From: an uncultured Prevotella sp.
Lineage (GTDB): Bacteria > Bacteroidota > Bacteroidia > Bacteroidales > Bacteroidaceae
Direction of reading: 5' to 3'
DNA: 36,408 nt
Assembly (NCBI GenBank): GCA_934254985.1
Contig: CAKQMS010000031.1
Span: 1-36,408, forward strand
Under the pieces are notes generated by a model. The model saw nothing but the letters and a program-made list of their open reading frames with translations, was not told the DNA's origin and did not search any database. The translations under genes were made by a program, and so were the position numbers. Positions 7,401 through 18,956 of this stretch are shown piece by piece (position 1 is the first letter of the stretch; every line of letters begins with the position of its first letter).

Positions 7401-7796
7401 ATGAACTTATTAAACAATGGATTCAGCCGTTTCCTACTATCAGGATTTGGCACAGGTACAGCAGCTGGGAAGGCGCTTGGTATCACAATTTTTCTTACCC
7501 TTTTTGTGTTTATTGTTGCCGTATATATCATTATCGGCATAGTAAAAATCTGCAGAGGTCCGCAGATACCAAACTTCAAAAATGGTCCTTACGCTGTAAG
7601 GGTAGATACTGTAGGTAATTCTTCAGACTTGTATAACCAACTGAATAGAATTACAGGCTATCGTCCAGCACTTGCAAAGAAGGTTATCGACAACGTGCCT
7701 ACCCTTGCTGCAAAAGGCTTGTCAAGACAAGATGCAGAAGACTTCGTGACTATTTTCGAAGCTACAGGAGCAACAGCAAGCGTTGTTGCAATGTAA
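7401..7796 (+). CDS. Membrane-anchored protein with ribosomal L7/L12-like C-terminal domain
   Basis: This 131-residue protein has one clear membrane segment (about 25-48, ITIFLTLFVFIVAVYIII) followed by a cytosolic part (about 60-131) that reads like the C-terminal domain of ribosomal protein L7/L12: the pattern RITGYRPALAKKVIDNVP, then LAAKGLSRQDAEDF and FEATGATASVV, copies the ITGLGLKEAK...VKEGVSKEEAEE...GA layout of the true L7/L12. In the ribosome that fold recruits translation factors; here no stalk or dimerisation part is present and a membrane anchor replaces it, so the role is unknown. It has its own promoter and terminator and is thus monocistronic. Confidence 0.75.
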   Translation: MNLLNNGFSRFLLSGFGTGTAAGKALGITIFLTLFVFIVAVYIIIGIVKICRGPQIPNFKNGPYAVRVDTVGNSSDLYNQLNRITGYRPALAKKVIDNVPTLAAKGLSRQDAEDFVTIFEATGATASVVAM

Positions 7797-7821: not shown

Positions 7822-7872
7822 AAAAAAGATTGCATTTCCACATATATTTTATGTGGAAATGCAATCTTTTTT
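7822..7872. terminator. Strong intrinsic terminator, symmetrical
   Basis: A perfect 21-bp stem (7822-7842 with 7852-7872) surrounds a 9-base loop; its outer 6 pairs are A on the left and T on the right, so it can act in both directions. It ends the L7/L12-domain gene and insulates the next operon, whose -33 box begins only 8 bases further on. Confidence 0.93.
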
Positions 7873-7879
7873 ATAATAA

Positions 7880-7911
7880 TTTGTCAATATTCATTTTATT
7901 GTATACCTTTG
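7880..7911 (+). promoter_or_regulatory. Promoter of the polysaccharide-secretion operon
   Basis: TTTG at 7880-7883 and TACCTTTG at 7904-7911 are separated by 20 bases, matching the Bacteroidota consensus. Transcription would start near 7918 and leave a leader of about 75 bases before the first kinase ATG. No other promoter of this quality was seen up to 18329, so the eight genes are probably driven from here. Confidence 0.78.
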
Positions 7912-7992: not shown

Positions 7993-9510
7993 ATGAAATC
8001 TGAAAGAACTAACTCTGACCATCTGATAATGCAGATGAGCAACATCAAAGATGTGCTTGAGACTGCATCGATGGGAATATGGCGCATCATCTTTAAAGAT
8101 GGATGTAGACCCCGCCTAAAAGCTTCAGATGAAATGCTTAAACTCTTGGGCATAGAAAAAGGACGCCAGTTGACAGAGGAAGAACTCTGCGACTGGTGGT
8201 ACAAGAGAGTTTATCCCGACGACATCAACATTGCCGAAGGCTATATGAAGGTATTGGCTTCTGGACAACGCAAAGAAGTGACATATCGATGGATTCACCC
8301 AACACTTGGTGTGAGACATGTGAGATGCGGCGGCATAGGACACAATGAAAATGATGGCACCATAGTGATAGAAGGCTACCACTATGATGTGACAGAGCAA
8401 ATGGAGCAGCAGATGAAAGATGCTTTCATTGCTGACGCTTTGGCAAAGACATATGCGTGCTTGGTATATTTGGACTTAGAAAAAGATTGGTATACTTCTT
8501 ATCTAAGCTCAAATACTAATATAATAAAAAATATTCCAAGAGAGGGACGTATTTCGGAAGCCATGAAGATTATGCCCAAGAATATATGTGCACCTTTCGA
8601 ATATGAAAATCTGCGCAAGTTTACTGACTTAAGTACACTAAACGAGCGCATGAAACATAACAACTCGATCTCTATAATCTTCAGTGGAGCAGTTGTGAAA
8701 TGGATAAGATTCACACTCATCGTTAGCGACCGTCATGCAGACGGTACTATACACCACATGGTGGCTACGATGAAGGACGTTTCGGAACTAAGAGACAAAG
8801 AGCTAAAAAGAGTTGAGGAGCTAAGAGAGAATATCGACGCAAACAAGTCGAAGACTATGATGCTCCAGAATATGACCCACGAGATAAGAACTCCACTTAA
8901 TGCGATGTTTGGTTTCTCACAATTGCTGTGTATGCCAGACACCACCGTTACGGAAGAGCAGAAGTTGGAGTATTTCAACTATATATATAATAGTTTCAAC
9001 ATGCTGTCGATGCTCGTTGACGATGTTATGGACATTGTTGACGCAGAGCATGGCAACTACAGAATACAGAAAAGTCCATTTATGGTGAACGATGTTTGCC
9101 GTAACGCTGTACAGATGGCAGAAATGCGACTACAGGCAGCAGTAAAACTATATTTCACCTCGGATGTGGCAGACGATTACACGCTCGACTCTGATGGAAG
9201 GCGTATACAACAGGTACTGGTGAACTTCCTGACAAATGCCTGTAAGCATACTTTGAAGGGAGAAATACACTTGCATGTGTCGACATCAGAAAATCCAGGA
9301 CGACTAACATTCTCGGTAACAGACACTGGCGAGGGTGTAGCTCCTGAAGCAGCAAAAGATATATTCCAACGATATAAGAAGGCACACAACAATGTCCAAG
9401 GTTCAGGAATTGGACTGCATATCTGCAGTATCATTGCCGAGAAGTTGGGAGCTGAGATAAAGCTCGACCAGAACTATACTAATGGAGCAAGATTCCTATT
9501 TATCATTTAA
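7993..9510 (+). CDS. Cytosolic PAS-domain sensor histidine kinase
   Basis: A 505-residue kinase without membrane segments or signal peptide. Residues about 20-135 form a PAS/PAC unit (ending IEGYHYDVTEQ) and about 145-265 a second, more diverged PAS-like unit ending in ATMKDVSELRD. A short coiled-coil leads to the dimerisation domain with the H box THEIRTPLN, His296 being the phosphate acceptor. The ATPase domain is complete: N box NFLTNACKH, G1 box DTGEG, F-type IFQRYKK and G2 box GSGIGLHI. There is no receiver domain, so the phosphate must pass to another protein, most simply the receiver encoded last in this operon at 18368. It is the first gene, 55 bases before the second kinase. The ligand is not known; a cytosolic metabolite or redox cue is likely from the location. 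Confidence 0.9.
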   Translation: MKSERTNSDHLIMQMSNIKDVLETASMGIWRIIFKDGCRPRLKASDEMLKLLGIEKGRQLTEEELCDWWYKRVYPDDINIAEGYMKVLASGQRKEVTYRWIHPTLGVRHVRCGGIGHNENDGTIVIEGYHYDVTEQMEQQMKDAFIADALAKTYACLVYLDLEKDWYTSYLSSNTNIIKNIPREGRISEAMKIMPKNICAPFEYENLRKFTDLSTLNERMKHNNSISIIFSGAVVKWIRFTLIVSDRHADGTIHHMVATMKDVSELRDKELKRVEELRENIDANKSKTMMLQNMTHEIRTPLNAMFGFSQLLCMPDTTVTEEQKLEYFNYIYNSFNMLSMLVDDVMDIVDAEHGNYRIQKSPFMVNDVCRNAVQMAEMRLQAAVKLYFTSDVADDYTLDSDGRRIQQVLVNFLTNACKHTLKGEIHLHVSTSENPGRLTFSVTDTGEGVAPEAAKDIFQRYKKAHNNVQGSGIGLHICSIIAEKLGAEIKLDQNYTNGARFLFII

Positions 9511-9565
9511 TCTTTCATGCTAAAGAGAGTAAGAGATAAAAAGAGGATAATAAAAAACAAGCTAT

Positions 9566-10915
9566 ATGACTAGAAACATGTATTGGATATCAGCAGTATG
9601 CTTCGCCATAATAATGCTGGTAATATTGGTAAAAGAGAGAAGGCGACATAGCAATCCGAGCAGATCGGACAGGGCGTTTTTCTTGATGATAAACTTCACA
9701 CTATTAAACTGTGTGCAGGATGTTGTTTGGGGCTTATGCTACAGCAATATCATAAACAACAACGCTATATACTTCGGAGCATCCGCAGTATTCCATGTGG
9801 TATGTGTTGCCAACATGTTCTTCTGGTTGTATTTCATCCTAACATACACGAAATGTAGGGAACCATACGGCTCGATATTGTTAGGATTAGACGGCTTGCT
9901 GGTAGCGGCAGAGATGGTAATGGTGGCATTAAACTTCTCAGAGCCTATACTTTTCGACATTAAGGATGGTGAATATGTGGTGGGAAAGTATCGCCCTTTG
10001 ACAATATTGTTCCAAGATATTGTTTGTATAGCGGCAGGTTTTTATACTTTAATAAAGATAATACGCAACCGTATACTCAACAATAGCTACGACCCACGAC
10101 ACTGGGCTGTGTGTATAGCGTCGCTGATACCTATATTCCTCAGCATCTTCCAATTGCATTATCCTGATGCGCCATTCTGTAGCACAGGTGTTGCTATGTC
10201 GTGCTTGATATTATATATATATGTGGTGTCGTATGAGCGCGAGGGATTGCAGCATAGCAAGGAGCTATTCTTGCAGAATATGAGCCACGAAATTCGCACA
10301 TCGCTAAACTCAGTATATGGTTTTGCACAGTTGCTGAGTATGCCTAACGGCACATGGAGTGATGAAGAACGTAACGCCTATGCCACTCATATCCACAATA
10401 GCTATAATATGCTGGATATGCTACTCAACGACTTGATGGTGTCTACTCGCTACGACACCCATAAGTATAGCGTAAAGATAAGCACGGTAGATGTGGCAAC
10501 AGCGGTGAAAGAAGCTGTAGAAGCTGTAGACGTATGCAAGCCTGCAAGCGTAGAAGTCAGTCTAACGTCGCATTTGCCAGAAAGCTTCACCATACAGAGC
10601 GATGGACGAAGAGTGCGCCAGGTGGTGCAGAACTTGCTCACCAATGCTTGCCAGTTTATCAATAAAGGCAAGATAAATATGAAGGTGCGCATCAACGAAG
10701 ACGACAAAGTGGAGATTTCGGTTGCGGCAAATGTGCCATATTCACAGGGTAACTCGTTTTTCCAAGATATTGAACAAAGTCTGAAAGACCACAAACAAGG
10801 CTTAGGACTGCGACTAAGGATATGCCAAAAGATGGCGAAGCTCTTAGGTGGCAGAGTATACCGAGATATCGGCTATACTGATGGCATAAGATATATGTTT
10901 GAACTAAGCGCTTAA
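9566..10915 (+). CDS. 7-TM histidine kinase with degenerate catalytic boxes
   Basis: This 449-residue membrane protein has about seven membrane segments (roughly 5-23, 38-60, 68-93, 102-125, 145-167, 183-200, 207-226), in the style of 7TM sensor kinases. The dimerisation domain follows, with His241 in SHEIRTSLN, where the usual proline of HExRTPLN is serine. The ATPase domain keeps the N box NLLTNACQF and a G2-like GLGLRL, but the G1 box DxGxG is absent: the region reads VAANVPYSQG. It may be a pseudokinase, a phosphatase-biased kinase or a partner of the intact kinase just upstream, whose H box and spacing it copies (FGFSQLL against YGFAQLL), suggesting an old duplication. It lies 25 bases before the HEAT-like gene. 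Confidence 0.87.
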   Translation: MTRNMYWISAVCFAIIMLVILVKERRRHSNPSRSDRAFFLMINFTLLNCVQDVVWGLCYSNIINNNAIYFGASAVFHVVCVANMFFWLYFILTYTKCREPYGSILLGLDGLLVAAEMVMVALNFSEPILFDIKDGEYVVGKYRPLTILFQDIVCIAAGFYTLIKIIRNRILNNSYDPRHWAVCIASLIPIFLSIFQLHYPDAPFCSTGVAMSCLILYIYVVSYEREGLQHSKELFLQNMSHEIRTSLNSVYGFAQLLSMPNGTWSDEERNAYATHIHNSYNMLDMLLNDLMVSTRYDTHKYSVKISTVDVATAVKEAVEAVDVCKPASVEVSLTSHLPESFTIQSDGRRVRQVVQNLLTNACQFINKGKINMKVRINEDDKVEISVAANVPYSQGNSFFQDIEQSLKDHKQGLGLRLRICQKMAKLLGGRVYRDIGYTDGIRYMFELSA

Positions 10916-10940
10916 GAAAGGTAAAAGAATAAACTATTTA

Positions 10941-12158
10941 ATGGTACTAACAACAGGTATTGAATATCCAACAGGGCATGGTTTGGACTTTTATGGATTT
11001 GAAGTCCTTGGATTCTACTTAAAGAAATTCCTGCTCTACTATTCGGACTATGCATGGAATATCCGTCTACTTTATGGACTGATATTAGCATGCATAGTCA
11101 CGATGCTTATTCTATTTGTTTTATTCATCAGGAAAATCCGACAAAACCGACGTGCAAGAAAAGAGTATAACACTGCTCGCAAGAATCTTTATAATGGTTT
11201 TTATCAGATATTGATTTCTGCTGATAAGCCAAGCGTAAGGGATCTTGAGATAGCATGCGGTACACCAATAAAAAACATACAATCGTATAAAGCCGAGACA
11301 TTGTCGCGACTTATTTCGGAAATATGTATGGACTTAAGTCGCGAGCTTGGTGACATACCAAATGCTGATATTTTGTGTCAGTATACTGGTGTGAAAGCTC
11401 TATACGAAAAAAACCTTGCTACTTCAAAGAATGTGATGCTGACACTGCAGAATCTTGCTAACATGCATATTCCGGTGACAGAAGGTTTGTTGGCTATATA
11501 TATCAACTATTATGATGCTAACATTCGCCACATGGCACGTATCTGCTATGTGATATCGTCGAAGGCTGAACCATACCAATATTTCCTTGAGGAGTTTAAC
11601 GACAAGTTAGGACTGTGGCGAATAATGATGCTACACCGCTTGTTTGCTTGGGCTTCTGCCAACGAACACCAGATGCCTCAATTCCTGGTTCTTGCAAAGA
11701 AGGTGAAGAACGAGGATTCGGTGGCTTTCCTTATTCAAGAAACAGCATACTGGGGTAGCGAAAAGGAGAAGGCTACGCTACACGAATGGTTCTTATCGCC
11801 AAACTATAAATATCGCACGGCTGCACTACATGCTATCGCCATATTGCGGGACACTAAACAAGAACAGGCAGCAATAGACTCTTATGAACACCAGCCAGAA
11901 TTTATCCGTCAGGAAGTTCTTAGAGCTGTCTATGCCATCAACTCGGGTAAACATACCGAATTCTTTGCTAACGCTTATCGCACATCAACTTCGAAACTCA
12001 CTCGCGAGGTTGCGCTGACATGCCTATATACCTATGGTCGTGACGGCAGACGAACTTTCGAGCTGTTGAGAGATGAATATATAAAGACAAATACCGATCG
12101 TACGCTGATGGACCAGATTGATTCTATGGGCGTACTTAATCAAATGAGAATGCTTTAA
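10941..12158 (+). CDS. Membrane-anchored HEAT-like repeat protein
   Basis: No named family was recognised with certainty. The 405-residue product has one strong membrane helix (about 43-63) followed at once by a basic stretch (RKIRQNRRARK), which puts the N terminus outside and the long C-terminal part in the cytosol. Residues about 150-400 are all helix-rich and show HEAT/Armadillo-like pairs, for example YKYRTAALHAIAIL, PEFIRQEVLRAVYAI and SKLTREVALTCLYTY at about 30-residue spacing. Such arrays bind proteins. Only 5 bases separate it from the glycosyltransferase, so I infer a scaffold that couples the polymerase to the operon's kinases or receiver. There is no catalytic motif. Codon use and base composition match the neighbours. 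Confidence 0.72.
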   Translation: MVLTTGIEYPTGHGLDFYGFEVLGFYLKKFLLYYSDYAWNIRLLYGLILACIVTMLILFVLFIRKIRQNRRARKEYNTARKNLYNGFYQILISADKPSVRDLEIACGTPIKNIQSYKAETLSRLISEICMDLSRELGDIPNADILCQYTGVKALYEKNLATSKNVMLTLQNLANMHIPVTEGLLAIYINYYDANIRHMARICYVISSKAEPYQYFLEEFNDKLGLWRIMMLHRLFAWASANEHQMPQFLVLAKKVKNEDSVAFLIQETAYWGSEKEKATLHEWFLSPNYKYRTAALHAIAILRDTKQEQAAIDSYEHQPEFIRQEVLRAVYAINSGKHTEFFANAYRTSTSKLTREVALTCLYTYGRDGRRTFELLRDEYIKTNTDRTLMDQIDSMGVLNQMRML

Positions 12159-12163
12159 TTGCT

Positions 12164-13609
12164 ATGTGGGAATTTTTAGTATATTTCTATGGATATGTCA
12201 TCTTCGCTTATTCGCTTTTGCTATTGGCGTCGTATGTGATGTTGTTGATATTCTCATATCAATACAGCACAAAATGTAAGCAATGGTCGGACGACTATAT
12301 CCGCCACATGGTACAGAGTTCACCATACGTACCAGGCATTTCTATCGTTGCACCAGCATATAACGAGGAGAAGACCATCATCGACAATGTGGAATCGCTT
12401 TTGAAGATGGATTATCCTAACTTCGAGGTCTGCATCGTCAACGATGGTAGTAAGGACAAGACATTGGAACTGCTCATCGACACATTCGACTTGGTAGAGG
12501 TGCCATTCGAATATGTTGAGAAGGTGCACTGTGCACCATTCAAACGACTGTTTAAATCTACTAATATCAACTACTCGAAGCTTGTAGTGGTTGACAAGGA
12601 GAATGGTGGAACAAAGGCGGATGCCGTGAATGGTGGACTAAACGTTATAGAGAACCCTTATTTCATCAATACCGACGTAGACTGTATCTTGTCGAAGGAT
12701 GCCATGTACCAATGTATATTCCCTGTGATTACAGACGAAAGCATCATTGCTGTGTCAGGAACCATGTCGATGAGTAACGGTTCAACCATCGACAACGGAG
12801 AGTTGGTAGACATTCGCCCTTCTAACCGTCCTATACCTTTGTTCCAGGATTTGGAATACAAGCGCTCATTCCTTGTTGGCAAGATGGGATGGAGCAAGAT
12901 AAACGCCATGAACAACGTGTCGGGAGGTTATGGTCTGTTCTCTACCGAGGTGGTTAGAGATGCTGGTGGCTATAGTAGTTCATCATTTGCCGAGGATATG
13001 GATATGCTGACACGAATGATAGCATATTGCTGCGACTTTAAGCGCAAATATAGAGTGGTACAGATACCACACAACTGCTGTTGGACTGAGGGTCCATCGA
13101 ACCTACGAATGCTATATCGTCAGCGTGTGCGCTGGGGACGAGGATTGATACAGATGATGTGGGAACATCGCAGAATAATATTGAATCGCAGATATAGAAA
13201 GTTAGGTCTTATCACGATGGTATACACGTTTCTCTTTGAGTTTATGGCACCTATCATCGAGTTTACAGGTTTGTTGTTCATGATTTACCTCGTCTTTGCA
13301 GGTGGTATAAACTGGGACACATTCTTTGTAACATTCTTTGCGATATATACTTTCAGCTTTATGCTCTCAACCTTTGTGGTGTTCTATGACTTCATCTTAG
13401 GAACATCATACACCACTATCAGAAGTTATCTGAAACTACTGTTGGCAGCAGCATTGGAGCCTTTTATATATCACCCTATAATCGTAGTGTGCTCTATTGT
13501 AGGCTACTTAAAGTTCATAACTCGCCAGAAAGCTGTATGGAAGTCTATGGAGCGTACTGGTATGAAGCGTAAAAACTCTGCAGCTTCTACAACAACTGGA
13601 GCTGCATAG
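12164..13609 (+). CDS. Processive family 2 glycosyltransferase (polysaccharide synthase)
   Basis: The 481-residue inner-membrane enzyme belongs to the GT2 group that includes PgaC, hyaluronan synthase and BcsA, which build a polysaccharide from nucleotide-sugars and push it through their own membrane channel. It shows an N-terminal membrane helix (about 8-32), a cytosolic GT-A domain starting SIVAPAYNEE, the sugar-nucleotide motifs NDGS, D171-V-D173 and E277-D278, the processivity motif Q320-R-V-R-W324, and three to four C-terminal membrane segments (about 348-455). No PilZ domain follows, unlike BcsA. Spacing is 5 bases to the HEAT-like gene and 22 to the TPR porin, so synthesis and export parts are likely made together. 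The sugar used cannot be told from sequence. Confidence 0.92.
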   Translation: MWEFLVYFYGYVIFAYSLLLLASYVMLLIFSYQYSTKCKQWSDDYIRHMVQSSPYVPGISIVAPAYNEEKTIIDNVESLLKMDYPNFEVCIVNDGSKDKTLELLIDTFDLVEVPFEYVEKVHCAPFKRLFKSTNINYSKLVVVDKENGGTKADAVNGGLNVIENPYFINTDVDCILSKDAMYQCIFPVITDESIIAVSGTMSMSNGSTIDNGELVDIRPSNRPIPLFQDLEYKRSFLVGKMGWSKINAMNNVSGGYGLFSTEVVRDAGGYSSSSFAEDMDMLTRMIAYCCDFKRKYRVVQIPHNCCWTEGPSNLRMLYRQRVRWGRGLIQMMWEHRRIILNRRYRKLGLITMVYTFLFEFMAPIIEFTGLLFMIYLVFAGGINWDTFFVTFFAIYTFSFMLSTFVVFYDFILGTSYTTIRSYLKLLLAAALEPFIYHPIIVVCSIVGYLKFITRQKAVWKSMERTGMKRKNSAASTTTGAA

Positions 13610-13631
13610 GAATGTAAAAGAAAGAAGAAAT

Positions 13632-16463
13632 ATGAGAATTGCTTTGATATATAGATGGTGCATAGTATTGATGCTGGGCTTAGTGGCTCAGCCAATATTG
13701 GCACAAGGACAAAAGAATAGTAGACGTAACGAAAACTATACGCCTACCATGAAAGGTACGCCTGGATATTACGACAAAACAGTGCGCCATCTATTTAGAC
13801 AAGGACTTTGGGGAACAGGCAAGAAGTTGCTCGACGAAGGACTTAGCAAATACGAAACACTTTCGGCACTAAATGAGCTTATGGGTTCATATTGGTTGCA
13901 CTATAAGAAATATGACAAGGCTCGCTATTTCCTTATCCGCTCTTTGCGCGACGACAACAAGAATCCACAGACATTGCAGATGCTGATGAAGGTGGAAGAA
14001 ATGACTCAGCACTATAGCTCGGCTATTGTTTATTGCAACCAACTGTTGGAGCTTGCACCTTATGAATATACGCTATGGCGCAAAAAGATAGAACTGTACA
14101 GACTGCAAGGAAATAATGTAGAGGCTATAAAAATGCTGAAACGATTGGGAGAGATATATCCTGATCGCGAAGAAGTGAGACGCGAGATTGCTGGCGACTA
14201 CGAGACAAGATATCGCAGATTCAAAGAAAAGAGGAATATTGTAGGACAGGAAGAGACGCTGAGAGAACTGGTAAGACTGGTACCAAAGGAAGCAGAATTC
14301 CAAATGGCATTATGCAATCTGCTGATACAATCGGGACGCATGGAAGAGGCATTGGATGTTGCCGGTCATGCAGCAACAATTGTGGCACACCCCTACCCTT
14401 TTGTAGAAAAGAAAGCTTCGATACTTGGTGAGATGTCGCGATATGGCGAGGCTTTGTCGTATGTAAGAACTGTACAAAGCAATATTCCTGCACTTGCACC
14501 AAGCTATGGAAAGTTGAATGGTCTAAAGAGCAACCTTGAGAGAGAGCAAGCACGAATAGCTGCACAAAACGACCCTTATACTGCCTATGGCAGACTATAC
14601 GAGAAGGAACATTCGGAAGAGGCGCTGACATATCTGCTCAACACGTCTATGTCGCGTGGATATCTCGACGATGCATTGATGTATATACGTGAAGCTCGCC
14701 GCAGACGTGGCGACTCGCAAAACTTGATGTATAGAGAGTATATAGTGCAGCGACGTTTGGGCAACACAAGAGCAGCAACAGCGATGTTGGAGAAGATTCA
14801 CTCAAGATGGCCTAACAATGAGGACGCAAATGAGGAACTGTGCGCTATACGCATGGAGGAAGTGCGCCACATGATGGACTTACAGCAATGGGGCGAAGCT
14901 GCGACATTGTTGGAGAGGCTGGAGACATACAAGGTGGATAGCGAGACTAAAGAGGCTATAGAGCGTAGACTCTTTACATGCTATGTGAATGCAGGCTATC
15001 GCCAAAAGGCATTGATGCAGCTTGACAAGATTAGCAACAATCAGGAGATGACGGCAGAACTATATGAGGAAATTATGATGCCGTATATCAAACAGCTGAT
15101 GAGCAATGGCTTGATGCATAAGGCGCAGGAAGAGATACAGAAGGTGATTGACAAGGGTCATCCTTCTGCCGATATTCTGAGTATGGCTATTACAACAGAG
15201 CTTGTATTGAAGAACCAAGAAAAGGCTCGTGAGTTGGTAGAGAAAGGAAAGACGCTATATCCCGAAAACCCCTTCTTCTTGCTAAAGGATGCTCAGCTAA
15301 CGGCAGCAGAAGGCGACTATGCTAAAGCCTATAATATGTTGCACGATATGGTAGACACATATATTGGCGACACAGCGATGGTGAAAGCTTATGCAGGCTG
15401 TTGCGAGGAATTGGCGATGAACTATGCCAAAGCTTCAGGCTATGAAGCAGCACTACGACTCATCAACGAAGGATTGGAATACTATCCTAATAGCCAATCG
15501 CTGATATTGGCAAAGTCGATGGTATACGAAAAGATGAAGGATTGGGATAAGGCAATAGATGCCTACAAGCTTTATCACCCAACATATGACGAGATACACG
15601 AATACTATCTTCGTATGGAGGCACTAAAACGCCACTTGCTTAAGAATCTTGTCACCATAGACTACCAGAGAGCACGACCATCGAGCGAGGATAATATCAC
15701 ATCGCAAGCCACAGTGTCGTATTCGCGAATACTTAAGAACAATACCTATACTCTGAGCACAGTGTATGTGGGTCGTGACGGATTGACTACTGCTACAGAC
15801 TCTACAGAAGCCGAAGGCGGTAACGGCATACAGGTGGTAGGAGAATGGCAGCACAAATGGGATGAGCGATTTACATCGAGCATCTCGGCAGGTGTGGCTA
15901 CGAAGTTTTTGCCACGAATTAAGCTTGGTCTCGGCGGAAACTATGAGTTTGATAATGACTGGACAGGAAGGGCTGATATCTCATACCGACTGATAGGTAA
16001 TAATTATAAGACATCGCTGATATGCGCAGGCATTGGTGCGACAAAGGATATCGAGCCTTTTAGTCTGGGTGCTGATTTTCGTGCATTCTTTATGACAGGT
16101 CAAGATACGAAATTGCTAAGCAACAGACTATTTGTGAATGGTGGCGTTACGGCAAGATGCTTCCCTATAGAGGGTAACCGCTCTAACTTCTTCGTGACAG
16201 GAAGTGTGGGTAATGCCCCTGAACTATCGCTGATAGACAACTCTATGCCTGTGAAGTTTAACCAGCTAAACACCATGCTGGGCTGCGGTGGACTATATGT
16301 AGTAAACTCTATGATAGACTTTGGTATCTCTGGCACATGGTACAATATGGCGATATCTACAAAAGAGATAAAGGACATAAATGCCGGAACTACGTTGGTA
16401 ACAAATGGAGATAAGAATAAGAACTATTTATATCTGGATGCATATGTTACGATACATTTCTAA
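13632..16463 (+). CDS. TPR / outer-membrane beta-barrel export porin (PgaA/PelB-like architecture)
   Basis: The 943-residue protein has a signal peptide (1-25, ending ILAQG), a long run of tetratricopeptide-type helical pairs (about 45-660) and a C-terminal strand-rich domain (about 672-943) that ends in YVTIHF, a terminal phenylalanine typical of barrels inserted by the BAM complex. This is the architecture of PgaA and PelB, in which the TPR part lines up periplasmic enzymes and the barrel lets the polymer out. YaiO-type barrels are an alternative match for the C-terminal part. It follows the polymerase by 22 bases and its last 20 bases overlap the next gene. Sequence identity to PgaA is not obvious, so the role is inferred from architecture and context. 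Confidence 0.85.
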   Translation: MRIALIYRWCIVLMLGLVAQPILAQGQKNSRRNENYTPTMKGTPGYYDKTVRHLFRQGLWGTGKKLLDEGLSKYETLSALNELMGSYWLHYKKYDKARYFLIRSLRDDNKNPQTLQMLMKVEEMTQHYSSAIVYCNQLLELAPYEYTLWRKKIELYRLQGNNVEAIKMLKRLGEIYPDREEVRREIAGDYETRYRRFKEKRNIVGQEETLRELVRLVPKEAEFQMALCNLLIQSGRMEEALDVAGHAATIVAHPYPFVEKKASILGEMSRYGEALSYVRTVQSNIPALAPSYGKLNGLKSNLEREQARIAAQNDPYTAYGRLYEKEHSEEALTYLLNTSMSRGYLDDALMYIREARRRRGDSQNLMYREYIVQRRLGNTRAATAMLEKIHSRWPNNEDANEELCAIRMEEVRHMMDLQQWGEAATLLERLETYKVDSETKEAIERRLFTCYVNAGYRQKALMQLDKISNNQEMTAELYEEIMMPYIKQLMSNGLMHKAQEEIQKVIDKGHPSADILSMAITTELVLKNQEKARELVEKGKTLYPENPFFLLKDAQLTAAEGDYAKAYNMLHDMVDTYIGDTAMVKAYAGCCEELAMNYAKASGYEAALRLINEGLEYYPNSQSLILAKSMVYEKMKDWDKAIDAYKLYHPTYDEIHEYYLRMEALKRHLLKNLVTIDYQRARPSSEDNITSQATVSYSRILKNNTYTLSTVYVGRDGLTTATDSTEAEGGNGIQVVGEWQHKWDERFTSSISAGVATKFLPRIKLGLGGNYEFDNDWTGRADISYRLIGNNYKTSLICAGIGATKDIEPFSLGADFRAFFMTGQDTKLLSNRLFVNGGVTARCFPIEGNRSNFFVTGSVGNAPELSLIDNSMPVKFNQLNTMLGCGGLYVVNSMIDFGISGTWYNMAISTKEIKDINAGTTLVTNGDKNKNYLYLDAYVTIHF

Positions 16464-17748
16464 AGGAACGGTAGCTCTCACAACAGCTCTCATCATAGGT
16501 GGCTGTTCGAGTACTGCTCAGACTATTGTGGAGCCACCACTATCGGAATATCATGGACTATACACTCCTTCAAACACAAAGGAAGTGCAGGAAGCCATGC
16601 ATACTAATCATCCGGACTATGATTGGGGATTATGGGGCCACAATCTCGTAAAGGTGATAAAAGACGAGGTTAAGGATGAGATGTATGCCACCATAAATGG
16701 CAAGAGGAACAGCAAGCAATTATGCTTCTCAAGCGATGCACTATACGATGTGGTGCGCAACTATATCATTGACCAATATGGATATGGCAACGATAACTAC
16801 AGCGAGCGCATAAGCATAATGCCTATGGACAACAAGATGGCTTGCACATGCAAGAGATGTAAAGCCAAGGGCAATACAGAGGGCAACGCCACTCCGGCAG
16901 TGACAGCATTCGTAACAAAGCTCGCAAAGGAGTTTCCTCGTCATCATTTCTTCACCTCTGCCTATCATACCACAAAGCAGGCTCCTACCACTATGCTACC
17001 AAAGAACGTTGGAGTATTCGTTTCAAGCTTTCCACTACCTGTGCAGGTAGACTTTAGCAAGAGCAAAGGGTATAAAGAGTTTCAGGCAATGGTAAAGGCA
17101 TGGAAAGAGAAATGCCAACGTATATATGTGTGGGACTACGAGCGCAACTTCAGCGACTATCTGTCACCATTTCCATGTTTGCTTGCTATGCAATCACGAT
17201 TGCAGCTGTACAGTCAACAAGGAGTGTTGGGAGTATTCTTCAATGGCAGTGGCGACGACTATTCAGCCTTCGATGATATGCAAACGCATGTGTTGGCTTT
17301 GATGATGGACGACCCTGATACGAACGTTCATGATGCCATTAGCAACTATTTCAAGGAGCACTATCCTATCACCGCACCAATATTAACAAAATATTATTGG
17401 ACATTGGAGCAACGCACCAAGAAAACAAATCATGAGTTACCGCTATATGGCACTATGAAGGATATGTGCGAGGCTTATCTCAACGTAGACGAGTTTGTAG
17501 ACTTCCGTAGAGAGCTTGATGCAGCAAGCAAGCAGACTATGGGCGACGAACGCAAACGACTAAACATATTGCTTACATCGCTTGCATATACGCAGTTGGA
17601 GATGTATCGTTGTGGTCTACTTGCAAAAGACGAGGAGATGGCAGACGAGATGAAGGAGATACTAAAAGGACATAGTGAAATAAAGGGTATGAAGAACCGT
17701 GATGAGGTGGGACATACTATTGATGAATATTTGAAACTATGGAAATAA
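16444..17748 (+). CDS. DUF4838-type lipoprotein, glycosidase-like
   Basis: I chose the ATG at 16444 because it gives a clean lipoprotein signal (MLRYISKGTV, then LIIGGC with Cys21); upstream in-frame ATGs at 16405 and 16438 would place extra charged residues before it. The mature part, about 414 residues, resembles DUF4838 proteins: the segment RISIMPMDNKMACTCKRCK is the typical CxC-x2-C stretch of that family, followed by PAVTAFVTKLAKEFP and aromatic-rich strands (VWDYERNFSDY). DUF4838 proteins are thought to have a TIM-barrel, glycoside-hydrolase-like fold. Placed after a polymerase and a TPR porin, it holds the position of PgaB or PelA, so polymer trimming or modification in the periplasm is inferred. 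No deacetylase motif is visible. It overlaps the porin gene by 20 bases and the next gene by 10. Confidence 0.8.
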   Translation: MLRYISKGTVALTTALIIGGCSSTAQTIVEPPLSEYHGLYTPSNTKEVQEAMHTNHPDYDWGLWGHNLVKVIKDEVKDEMYATINGKRNSKQLCFSSDALYDVVRNYIIDQYGYGNDNYSERISIMPMDNKMACTCKRCKAKGNTEGNATPAVTAFVTKLAKEFPRHHFFTSAYHTTKQAPTTMLPKNVGVFVSSFPLPVQVDFSKSKGYKEFQAMVKAWKEKCQRIYVWDYERNFSDYLSPFPCLLAMQSRLQLYSQQGVLGVFFNGSGDDYSAFDDMQTHVLALMMDDPDTNVHDAISNYFKEHYPITAPILTKYYWTLEQRTKKTNHELPLYGTMKDMCEAYLNVDEFVDFRRELDAASKQTMGDERKRLNILLTSLAYTQLEMYRCGLLAKDEEMADEMKEILKGHSEIKGMKNRDEVGHTIDEYLKLWK

Positions 17749-18329
17749 AGATAAAGAATATAGCACAGAGCATTATCGGTACCGCAGTAGTACTGATGGT
17801 AGGCATGATGTTGCTGACATCATGCCATAAAAAGCTTGAGCCTACAGCAATAGAGATAGAAGACTCTATACGCCATTATCCAGCAACCGTACTTGGTGAC
17901 GATTTAGAGATGGTGTATGTGGTTCGCAATATTGGCAATGAAATGCTTATGATAAGCGACATACAGCCTGCGGTGCCAACAATAGAGGTGGATAAGGCAA
18001 ATGTCAATATGATACCACCAGGCGAAGAAGCTCTGCTGAAATTTGTATATCATTCTGATAAGAACATAGGATTGGCGCGACATATCATCCGACTATTCGG
18101 TAATATATACCCTTCGGGAGTAGCAGAGATAATCTTCGATACCCACGTGGTAAGACCATCGATAGACTTATCTGACTATGAGGAGTATTATCACGAGAAG
18201 CTGAAGAATGATGCTGAAAGCATTCTCGACGAACAAAAGGGCGCTAAAGAATATCTCACTGATACCATAACAGATGGCACTGACAAGATAAACGAAAGAA
18301 ATCGATATACTGATTATCCTATAGAATAA
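17739..18329 (+). CDS. DUF1573-type lipoprotein
   Basis: A 196-residue protein with a lipoprotein signal ending LLTSC (Cys29) and one immunoglobulin-like DUF1573 domain (about 45-150): the family signature is seen as YVVRNIGNEMLMISDIQPAV, then VNMIPPGEEALLKFVYHS, and the strand VAEIIFDTHVV. DUF1573 domains are common in Bacteroidota surface and periplasmic proteins and resemble ASPM/SPD-2/Hydin beta-sandwiches; no enzymatic function is known. The charged tail (about 150-196) could be a linker. Its ATG lies within the end of the DUF4838 gene (10-base overlap), which argues for coupled translation and a shared complex. A role as a periplasmic clamp for the secretion machine is a guess. Confidence 0.82.
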   Translation: MEIKIKNIAQSIIGTAVVLMVGMMLLTSCHKKLEPTAIEIEDSIRHYPATVLGDDLEMVYVVRNIGNEMLMISDIQPAVPTIEVDKANVNMIPPGEEALLKFVYHSDKNIGLARHIIRLFGNIYPSGVAEIIFDTHVVRPSIDLSDYEEYYHEKLKNDAESILDEQKGAKEYLTDTITDGTDKINERNRYTDYPIE

Positions 18330-18367
18330 AAATAGTCTTGAATAAATAACTAAACCATATATATATT

Positions 18368-18838
18368 ATGAAACAAATTGCAGGAATTGACACAAACAAT
18401 TTTAAATTGCTTTTGGTTGATGATATACCATTGAACTTGATTCTGCTGGAGAAGATGCTAAAGCCTTACGAGTTTCAAATTTCAAAGGCTCACAATGGTC
18501 GCGAGGCTCTGCAGATGATACAAGAGACCCAAGACACACCAGATGCCTTCGACTTGGCTATCGTAGACCTGATGATGCCTGAGATAGATGGCTATCAGGT
18601 AATAGAAAGCGTGAGAAAAGGATGCTGTAACGATGAATTTAAAATCAACACCAAGGATAAAGAGCAATTCCCTTTGATAATACTATCGGGAATGAACTTC
18701 AACGACGACATCACCAAGGGATTGACACTTGGAGCAAACCAGTTTCTTACAAAGCCTGTGGTAATGGAGAGATTGTATACTGCCGTTACAGAGGAACTAA
18801 CAAGATTAGTTCAGACAGGAAATAAGCAATTGTCATAG
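18368..18838 (+). CDS. Stand-alone response regulator receiver
   Basis: This 156-residue protein is a single CheY-like receiver with no output domain. All the phosphorylation residues are present: Asp18 and Asp19 in LLVDDIPLN, the acceptor Asp67 in AIVDLMMPE, Ser107 in IILSG, and Lys129 in LTKPV. An insertion rich in charge (about 86-100) lengthens the loop before strand four. It is 38 bases downstream of the DUF1573 gene and is last in the operon, just before a terminator. The two kinases at the start have no receiver of their own, so this is the likely phosphate target. Lacking a DNA-binding domain, it must act by protein contact, perhaps on the HEAT-like scaffold or the polymerase. Confidence 0.9.
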   Translation: MKQIAGIDTNNFKLLLVDDIPLNLILLEKMLKPYEFQISKAHNGREALQMIQETQDTPDAFDLAIVDLMMPEIDGYQVIESVRKGCCNDEFKINTKDKEQFPLIILSGMNFNDDITKGLTLGANQFLTKPVVMERLYTAVTEELTRLVQTGNKQLS

Positions 18839-18871
18839 AAGACAATATACATCGGTTTACCGAAATAATTA

Positions 18872-18912
18872 CCGCGTACACTCTCAGCATGATTATGCTG
18901 AGGATGTACGCG
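18872..18912. terminator. Terminator between convergent operons
   Basis: CCGCGTAC at 18872-18879 pairs with GTACGCGG at 18905-18912, and CTCAGCAT with ATGCTGAG inside, giving a long two-part hairpin with a four-base loop. CTATTTTATG follows on the plus strand and AATTATTTCGG on the minus strand. It separates the response regulator gene from the oppositely oriented DUF5723 gene. Confidence 0.82.
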
Positions 18913-18956
18913 GCTATTTTATGTTAGTATGAAATACTTAGTTTTCCAGAAAGAAA

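Follow-up and report, generated by a model that had tools for sequence, protein, structure and literature searches.

The best-known switch of synthase-dependent exopolysaccharide secretion is c-di-GMP, and the locus described here raises the question of whether a processive synthase may be switched by a phospho-receiver instead, as the initial annotation of this DNA had proposed. The locus lies in a stretch of 36,408 nucleotides from an uncultured Prevotella sp., the whole of which is referred to below as the window. An uninterrupted run of eight plus-strand ORFs was confirmed at 7993-18838, all eight at the place and on the strand initially assigned to them, with the following features:

7880-7911, plus strand: match to the Bacteroidota-type promoter pattern TTTG-N-TAnnTTTG (pattern scan of the sequence)
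7993-9510, plus strand: HK1, a PAS_3, HisKA and HATPase_c sensor histidine kinase (domain and motif search)
9566-10915, plus strand: HK2, a membrane histidine kinase with HisKA and HATPase_c (domain and motif search)
10941-12158, plus strand: HEAT protein (domain search and structure model; clearer HEAT matches in relatives)
12164-13609, plus strand: GT2, a processive-type family 2 glycosyltransferase (domain and motif search)
13632-16463, plus strand: putative outer-membrane exporter, a TPR protein whose C-terminal part is a YaiO-like barrel (domain search)
16405-17748, plus strand: DUF4838 lipoprotein (domain search and alignment)
17739-18329, plus strand: DUF1573-like lipoprotein (sub-threshold match)
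18368-18838, plus strand: stand-alone receiver with complete phosphorylation residues (domain search and residue check)
18872-18913, plus strand: hairpin, probable terminator (folding)

The intergenic distances are, in gene order, 55, 25, 5, 22, -59, -10 and 38 bases. The promoter match is located ~80 bases upstream of the first ATG, and its pattern occurs six times in the whole window, compared to 0.84 matches expected by chance; a second plus-strand match, inside HK1 at 8439-8472, is probably due to chance. Downstream, a folding energy of -41.4 kcal/mol (z -6.96) was obtained for positions 18836-18956, and 0/200 shuffles equalled it. This upstream match and the strong hairpin behind the run are consistent with the promoter and terminator that had been placed there. 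A generic scan for sigma-70 promoters and terminators listed neither of the two, its 39 promoters being at chance level (35.0 expected) and its terminators numbering 14 (9.6 expected), while megablast of window positions 1-25000 against plasmids and an Rfam search at the gathering threshold returned no match.

The HEAT protein exhibits one membrane segment (residues 43-61) followed by an all-helical HEAT-like solenoid; its HEAT_2 match is weak (20.4 bits against a cut-off of 27.7), and its model matched armadillo/HEAT-type and designed repeat proteins in the PDB. The HEAT gene directly precedes that of GT2, which carries the motifs NDGS, DVD, ED and QRVRW and hydrophobic segments in a 1+4 arrangement, and whose profile matched general GT2s as well as chondroitin and cellulose synthases among PDB sequences. 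TPR repeats are clear in the putative exporter, which matched one designed TPR protein in the PDB by sequence; its YaiO barrel scores 22 bits against a cut-off of 23.9, and that of a shorter relative (locus L118) 176.9 bits. The DUF4838 protein probably starts at ATG 16444, a start chosen by eye because a signal peptide with the lipobox IIGGC follows it. Its domain match is strong (147.9 bits, cut-off 26.6), with residues D142, D244 and E434 invariant in alignments of 29 and 28 proteins, and that of the DUF1573-like protein falls below threshold (23.2 bits, cut-off 26.1).

The gene order was looked for in other genomes and was found. The synthase and TPR-exporter operon proved to be conserved through Bacteroidota. 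Of 80 genome loci, 79 were analysed (related genomes being taken as separate in this and the other locus and genome counts), and the neighbours of GT2 were present, where testable, in 75/76 (HEAT), 77/77 (TPR/barrel), 69/71 (DUF4838) and 51/63 (DUF1573) cases. The conserved unit is not the proposed eight genes but five, i.e., HEAT-GT2-TPR/barrel-DUF4838-DUF1573, the kinases and receiver being accessory in the window's branch. GT2 directly follows HEAT at 38/38 places in HEAT-profile samples of class and phylum. Outside the phylum, HEAT-GT2 pairs were present in 11/11 cases viewed, which came from haloarchaea, Alphaproteobacteria, Deinococcus, Bacilli and Legionella. Profile comparison of HEAT-GT2 across phyla gave 95.3%, a figure which the repeats may inflate. 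The archaeal pairs suggest that the pairing is old or has been widely transferred. No description of the module was found in searches of open-licence PMC papers.

With regard to c-di-GMP, GGDEF and PilZ were each found in 0/50 locus-bearing genomes (relatives, representing 50 of the 80 loci), in agreement with the initial claim of control other than by c-di-GMP. This does not, however, represent a special replacement, because GGDEF is rare across the whole class (2/247 genomes, E 1e-10) and across the order (6/198). In a phylum sample, GGDEF occurred in 0/21 HEAT-positive compared to 108/177 HEAT-negative genomes (Fisher); mutual exclusion of HEAT and GGDEF was rejected as evidence, since the class-wide rarity of GGDEF accounts for this pattern. 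The HEAT protein, initially suggested to replace PilZ control together with the receiver, would correspond to a PgaD-like partner more closely than to PilZ. How synthases are switched is thus an issue in a class in which GGDEF was detected in 2/247 and the HEAT partner in 25/247 genomes, and HEAT-GT2 together with a receiver represents a testable candidate.

The tie between a phospho-receiver and HEAT-GT2, as initially claimed, was found to recur as a genomic link both inside and outside the phylum. A stand-alone receiver is encoded within -3 to +4 genes of HEAT-GT2, on either strand, at 31/38 places in the HEAT-profile samples of class and phylum, compared to 0/114 among more distant genes, and in 7/11 of the pairs viewed outside the phylum. 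Receivers are not universal: among the loci found with the HEAT profile, four (L022, L108, L122 and L123) showed none within the stretches covered, and only 3/41 Bacteroidales rows of the GT2 tree have one at the locus, some of these contigs being short. The tree, obtained by a quick method and with the placement of long rows outside Bacteroidota unsure, requires 10 changes of receiver label. It is conceivable, if rather unlikely, that HEAT does no more than scaffold or help to assemble the GT2-exporter complex, with receivers and kinases acting elsewhere in answer to the same signal: HEAT-GT2 is invariant (38/38) while the receiver is not, and many loci of the window's branch possess HEAT without a receiver. 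Yet the HEAT-linked receivers leave no room for an output domain, unrelated phyla and archaea likewise have them next to HEAT, and where a receiver directly precedes HEAT the spacing is -4 to 10 bases in 11/14 cases.

We lean, with some confidence, towards a polymer-export locus whose synthase is switched by the receiver via the cytoplasmic HEAT solenoid. HEAT would accompany the GT2s of this clade as a constant partner, its single membrane anchor placing the solenoid beside the catalytic domain. Kinases, in the window HK1 with HK2 as membrane sensor partner, would phosphorylate the stand-alone receiver, which would dock on the solenoid and so switch the synthase; in other systems c-di-GMP with PgaD or PilZ plays this role. 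The genes, their motifs, the HEAT-GT2 pairing and the frequency of the receiver come from computation, whereas we infer the two HEAT contacts, the acting kinase and the direction of the switch, as well as the polymer. Against a receiver-HEAT switch, most loci of the window's own sub-branch lack a neighbouring receiver, as do the four HEAT-profile loci named above in the stretches covered, and no REC-HEAT fusion was found among the ORFs examined. Furthermore, the acceptor position is occupied by Asn in the HEAT-adjacent receivers of L067 and L002, and therefore phosphorylation is not always the input.

As for the product, an exported polymer, probably beta-linked and perhaps containing GlcNAc, would be polymerised and extruded by the inner-membrane GT2, taken across the outer membrane by the TPR/barrel protein, and trimmed or handled by the two lipoproteins, either periplasmically or on the surface. 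The locus resembles Pga/Ica systems in that PgaC/IcaA is the best NCBIfam match of GT2 and in having a membrane partner beside the synthase, a putative glycan-active enzyme of the periplasm and a putative TPR-plus-barrel exporter, the barrel match of which is just below its cut-off. It differs in that GT2 is not an equivalog (122 bits against the TIGR03937 cut-off of 422.3), that none of the eight window proteins matches a polysaccharide deacetylase (PgaB/IcaB), that HEAT would stand in the position of PgaD, and in the lack of GGDEF and PilZ in the locus-bearing genomes described above. In comparison with cellulose synthase (Bcs), GT2 scores 39.5 bits against a CelA cut-off of 699.1 and has no PilZ match. 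In E. coli, YaiO-type exporters accompany a GT2 synthase (YaiO/YaiP and Nfr); the window would share with these the putative TPR/YaiO-like barrel paired with a GT2, and several HEAT-GT2 loci encode a short YaiO protein, while the HEAT partner and stand-alone receiver set the window apart.

The DUF4838 domain may relate the lipoprotein to GH163, a label given to a DUF4838 protein of P. dokdonensis in a single paper (PMC9870897); a B. thetaiotaomicron GH163 enzyme is reported to cleave GlcNAc-beta-1,2-Man in N-glycans (PMC10154615). The window copy is distinct in residing in a synthesis-type locus and in consisting of the central domain only, without the outer N- and C-terminal domains of longer relatives. 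Among PDB sequences, the DUF4838 profile matched 6q63 via outer domains only and 6hze/6hzf weakly at the N-terminus, and no GH163 structure was seen among the matches listed. Against GlcNAc, the HEAT-GT2 pair of the Legionella locus is surrounded by genes for epimerases and a nucleotide sugar dehydrogenase, and several relatives possess a PF00884 domain; the polymer may therefore differ between branches. The GT2 glycan could be something other than an exported homopolymer, such as a polymer that is decorated or anchored at the surface, as GT2 is fused to a PF00884 sulfatase domain in L108 and L111 and a PF00884 gene is near the pair in L101, L107 and L002 (the last annotated as LTA synthase family). 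For the window this is improbable: PF00884 is found in none of its eight proteins, which instead include the long TPR/barrel and DUF4838 proteins.

Among the window's own signalling proteins, a motif search of HK1 returned the H-box, G1 and G2, and the N-box pattern was unmatched, yet NFLTNA is visible by eye; its single hydrophobic stretch, at 226-244, is borderline, with none N-terminal. HK2 has six hydrophobic segments, an H-box, N-box and G2. Counting against the switch, no DxGxG (G1) was found in HK2 by motif search, and the receiver gene is the last of the operon and not before HEAT. The receiver itself keeps DD, D, S and K, so that acidic pair, acceptor Asp and Lys are all present. That these kinases and receiver are an unrelated two-component set, merely co-transcribed with the five-gene operon, is least probable: B. 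finegoldii and most Bacteroidales rows do carry the five genes without them, but a receiver is likewise part of the locus, in other positions, in the close relatives L004 and L006, that of L004 sharing 46% identity with the window receiver across 148 columns, and the wider HEAT-GT2 family shows the same association. Of the 84 receiver families matched, EpsW (NF041866, response regulator of exopolysaccharide biosynthesis) is likewise a single-domain receiver in an exopolysaccharide cluster, but the window receiver scores 44.5 bits against its cut-off of 200, and we know of no HEAT-GT2 pair in EpsW systems.

Whether REC-HEAT-GT2 forms a general cross-domain control module, in which a phosphorylated receiver would bind HEAT and gate a processive synthase, we regard as evenly balanced. 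If so, phosphorelay through this module would do in Bacteroidota, Proteobacteria and haloarchaea what c-di-GMP control does elsewhere, and the module would be a main candidate for post-translational synthase switching in the GGDEF-poor class of the window's relatives. As a separate observation, BLASTP of an Emticicia HEAT-like protein against the window HEAT protein gave no significant match; the family profile nevertheless labelled one ORF of the Emticicia locus as HEAT.

The eight ORFs of the initial annotation (7993-18838, plus strand) were found at the positions assigned to them, spaced by 5 to 55 bases or overlapping. They encode two kinases (HK1 and HK2), a membrane-anchored helical-repeat protein (HEAT), a processive-type family 2 glycosyltransferase (GT2), a TPR/barrel protein, DUF4838 and DUF1573 proteins and a lone receiver, i.e., a stand-alone phosphorylation domain. 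The operon is flanked by the following features:

Upstream, minus strand: methionyl-tRNA-synthetase-like gene, named by eye
7401-7796, plus strand: small ORF between that gene and the operon
7880-7911: match to a promoter pattern of the Bacteroidota kind, 5' of the operon
18872-18913: strong hairpin 3' of the last operon gene
Downstream, minus strand: DUF5723 gene, convergent with the operon

A 20-pair hairpin, terminator-like on both strands, lies at 7825-7869, between the small ORF and the promoter match. HK2 (9566-10915) lacks a DxGxG motif, and may represent a degenerate kinase dependent on HK1.

Conservation of the gene order was assessed in the best 80 of 514 loci confirmed by a GT2 alignment scan, with L013, which has no GT2 ORF, left out of the locus counts, and with neighbour counts restricted to loci whose contig permits the test. 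Within this best-80 set, HEAT adjoins GT2 in 75 of 76 testable loci (the sole miss, L029, begins 350 bases into its contig), while the TPR/barrel gene is present at 77/77, DUF4838 at 69/71 and DUF1573 at 51/63. Of the twelve loci lacking DUF1573, ten belong to the Chitinophagales or Pedobacter type, which often possesses two GT2 genes in tandem. The B. finegoldii locus holds the same five genes (identities to the window: HEAT 23%, GT2 53%, TPR 32%, DUF4838 38% and DUF1573 41%), while kinases and receiver are absent. Based on these neighbour counts and the B. finegoldii locus, the conserved unit is HEAT-GT2-TPR/barrel-DUF4838-DUF1573, five genes rather than the proposed eight.

Long DUF4838 relatives (about 700-820 residues) carry N- and C-terminal domains flanking a central domain, several of about 570-620 residues are without the N-terminal part, and the proteins of the window and L004 lack both; the invariant residues are retained, including D142, W243-D244-Y245, E434 and the CxCxxC group. 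A further protein family, annotated DUF4842 in L001 and perhaps a matrix protein, is encoded no more than a few genes away in ten loci (L001, L017, L021, L022, L024, L025, L027, L030, L032 and L057). Two loci from records titled Limnohabitans (L034) and Gastranaerophilales MAG (L040) are of Bacteroidota type and branch among the Bacteroidota sequences in the GT2 tree, reflecting either binning error or transfer.

To avoid choosing loci by GT2, genomes were also sampled with a HEAT profile. The phylum of B. xylanisolvens (G016) yielded 24 places in 21 of 198 genomes (E 1e-20 or better) and its class 26 places in 25 of 247 genomes, twelve being common to both; the places comprise 21 in L101-L120, two in L121-L122, one in L022 (G016 itself) and 14 further class places in L123-L136. 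GT2 directly follows HEAT at all 38 places (24/24 in the phylum). GT2 ORFs of 1134-1260 aa occur in L108, L110, L111, L112, L119 and L120; the two scanned (L108 and L111) carry a PF00884 sulfatase domain after GT2, and in L101 and L107 PF00884 is found in a separate gene, so these branches perhaps make a decorated polymer. The HEAT proteins of L104, L105, L106, L127 and L129 have an N-terminal extension preceding the membrane segment, which in L104-L106 begins, by eye, like a signal peptide, and is possibly a periplasmic sensor part.

The pairing extends beyond Bacteroidota. A tblastn search of plasmid records returned 14 with a GT2 of about 33% identity or more over at least 80% of the query, two being Bacteroidota; among the other twelve, eleven were examined (one Mesorhizobium record was left out), and HEAT directly precedes GT2 in 11/11, i.e., in Mesorhizobium (2), Erythrobacter, Devosia (whose GT2 is split into two pieces by annotation), Legionella adelaidensis, Deinococcus, Planococcus, Paenibacillus and three haloarchaea. 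Seven of these have a receiver nearby, four of the seven with an intervening TPR or YaiO gene. No HEAT gene is annotated within 2.5 kb of six GT2s at about 30% identity or less; one of these adjoins a response-regulator transcription factor as well as a kinase, another a diguanylate cyclase.

Regarding the receiver, receivers of up to 160 aa occur within -3 to +4 genes of HEAT, on either strand, at 31 of the 38 HEAT-profile places (21/24 in the phylum), as opposed to 0/114 genes further off, and at 17 (15/24 in the phylum) the receiver stands immediately before HEAT on the same strand; a kinase-like ORF immediately precedes it in L102, L103, L111, L112, L115 and L119. Of the seven negative places, L126, L133 and L135 are interrupted by contig ends, and the stretches of L022, L108, L122 and L123 contain no receiver. 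Among the loci selected by GT2, the plus-strand gene preceding HEAT encodes a lone receiver at 13/65 places, compared to 2/598 other ORFs (Fisher p 2e-12, kinship ignored).

HEAT accompanies this GT2 clade, probably facing the cytoplasm, and a phosphorylation-competent receiver without output domain, often located beside it, would control the synthase through HEAT, which gene order and topology suggest as the simplest account. Counting against such control is the rarity of receivers in the window's own branch (3/41 tree rows): among the five loci nearest the window, L004 and L006 have one, while L005, L007 and L008 have none within the stretch examined. Directly behind DUF1573, L006 (17200-21388) carries two lone receivers in tandem and a kinase-matching ORF (1109 aa, incomplete at the locus end), a fuller two-component set than that of the window. 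Receivers adjoining HEAT in L067 (8375-8746) and L002 (4810-5208) have Asn at the acceptor place, and are possibly pseudo-receivers retained at the locus. No paper on a HEAT-GT2-receiver module was found among open-licence PMC full texts.

The initial annotation placed the operon under two-component rather than c-di-GMP control. In agreement, GGDEF and PilZ were each detected in 0/50 locus-bearing genomes (covering 50 of the 80 loci), while controls were positive in 8/14 and 5/14, respectively. However, GGDEF occurs in 108/198 genomes of the phylum of G016 as against 2/247 in its class (at E 1e-10; neither among the 25 HEAT genomes) and 6/198 in its order (five above cut-off), class and order being taken from the organism as Bacteroidia and Bacteroidales. 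The absence of GGDEF therefore follows the class, and is not special to the HEAT-GT2 locus, and no locus-specific swap is indicated. HEAT exceeds 130 bits in 17/198 order genomes, none among the six with GGDEF; at E 0.001, 53/198 match, many being short general repeat matches.

Published expression data for Polaribacter dokdonensis MED152 report GT2 (MED152_03905) as 8.8-fold and MED152_03915 (DUF4838/GH163) as 18.5-fold higher in Micromonas co-culture than on glucose (PMC9870897), where both are listed as CAZymes outside PULs and, in that listing, are not linked by the authors. Their tags leave room for one gene in between, as in the Polaribacter loci analyzed here, and from this spacing we infer that both genes belong to the same locus type.
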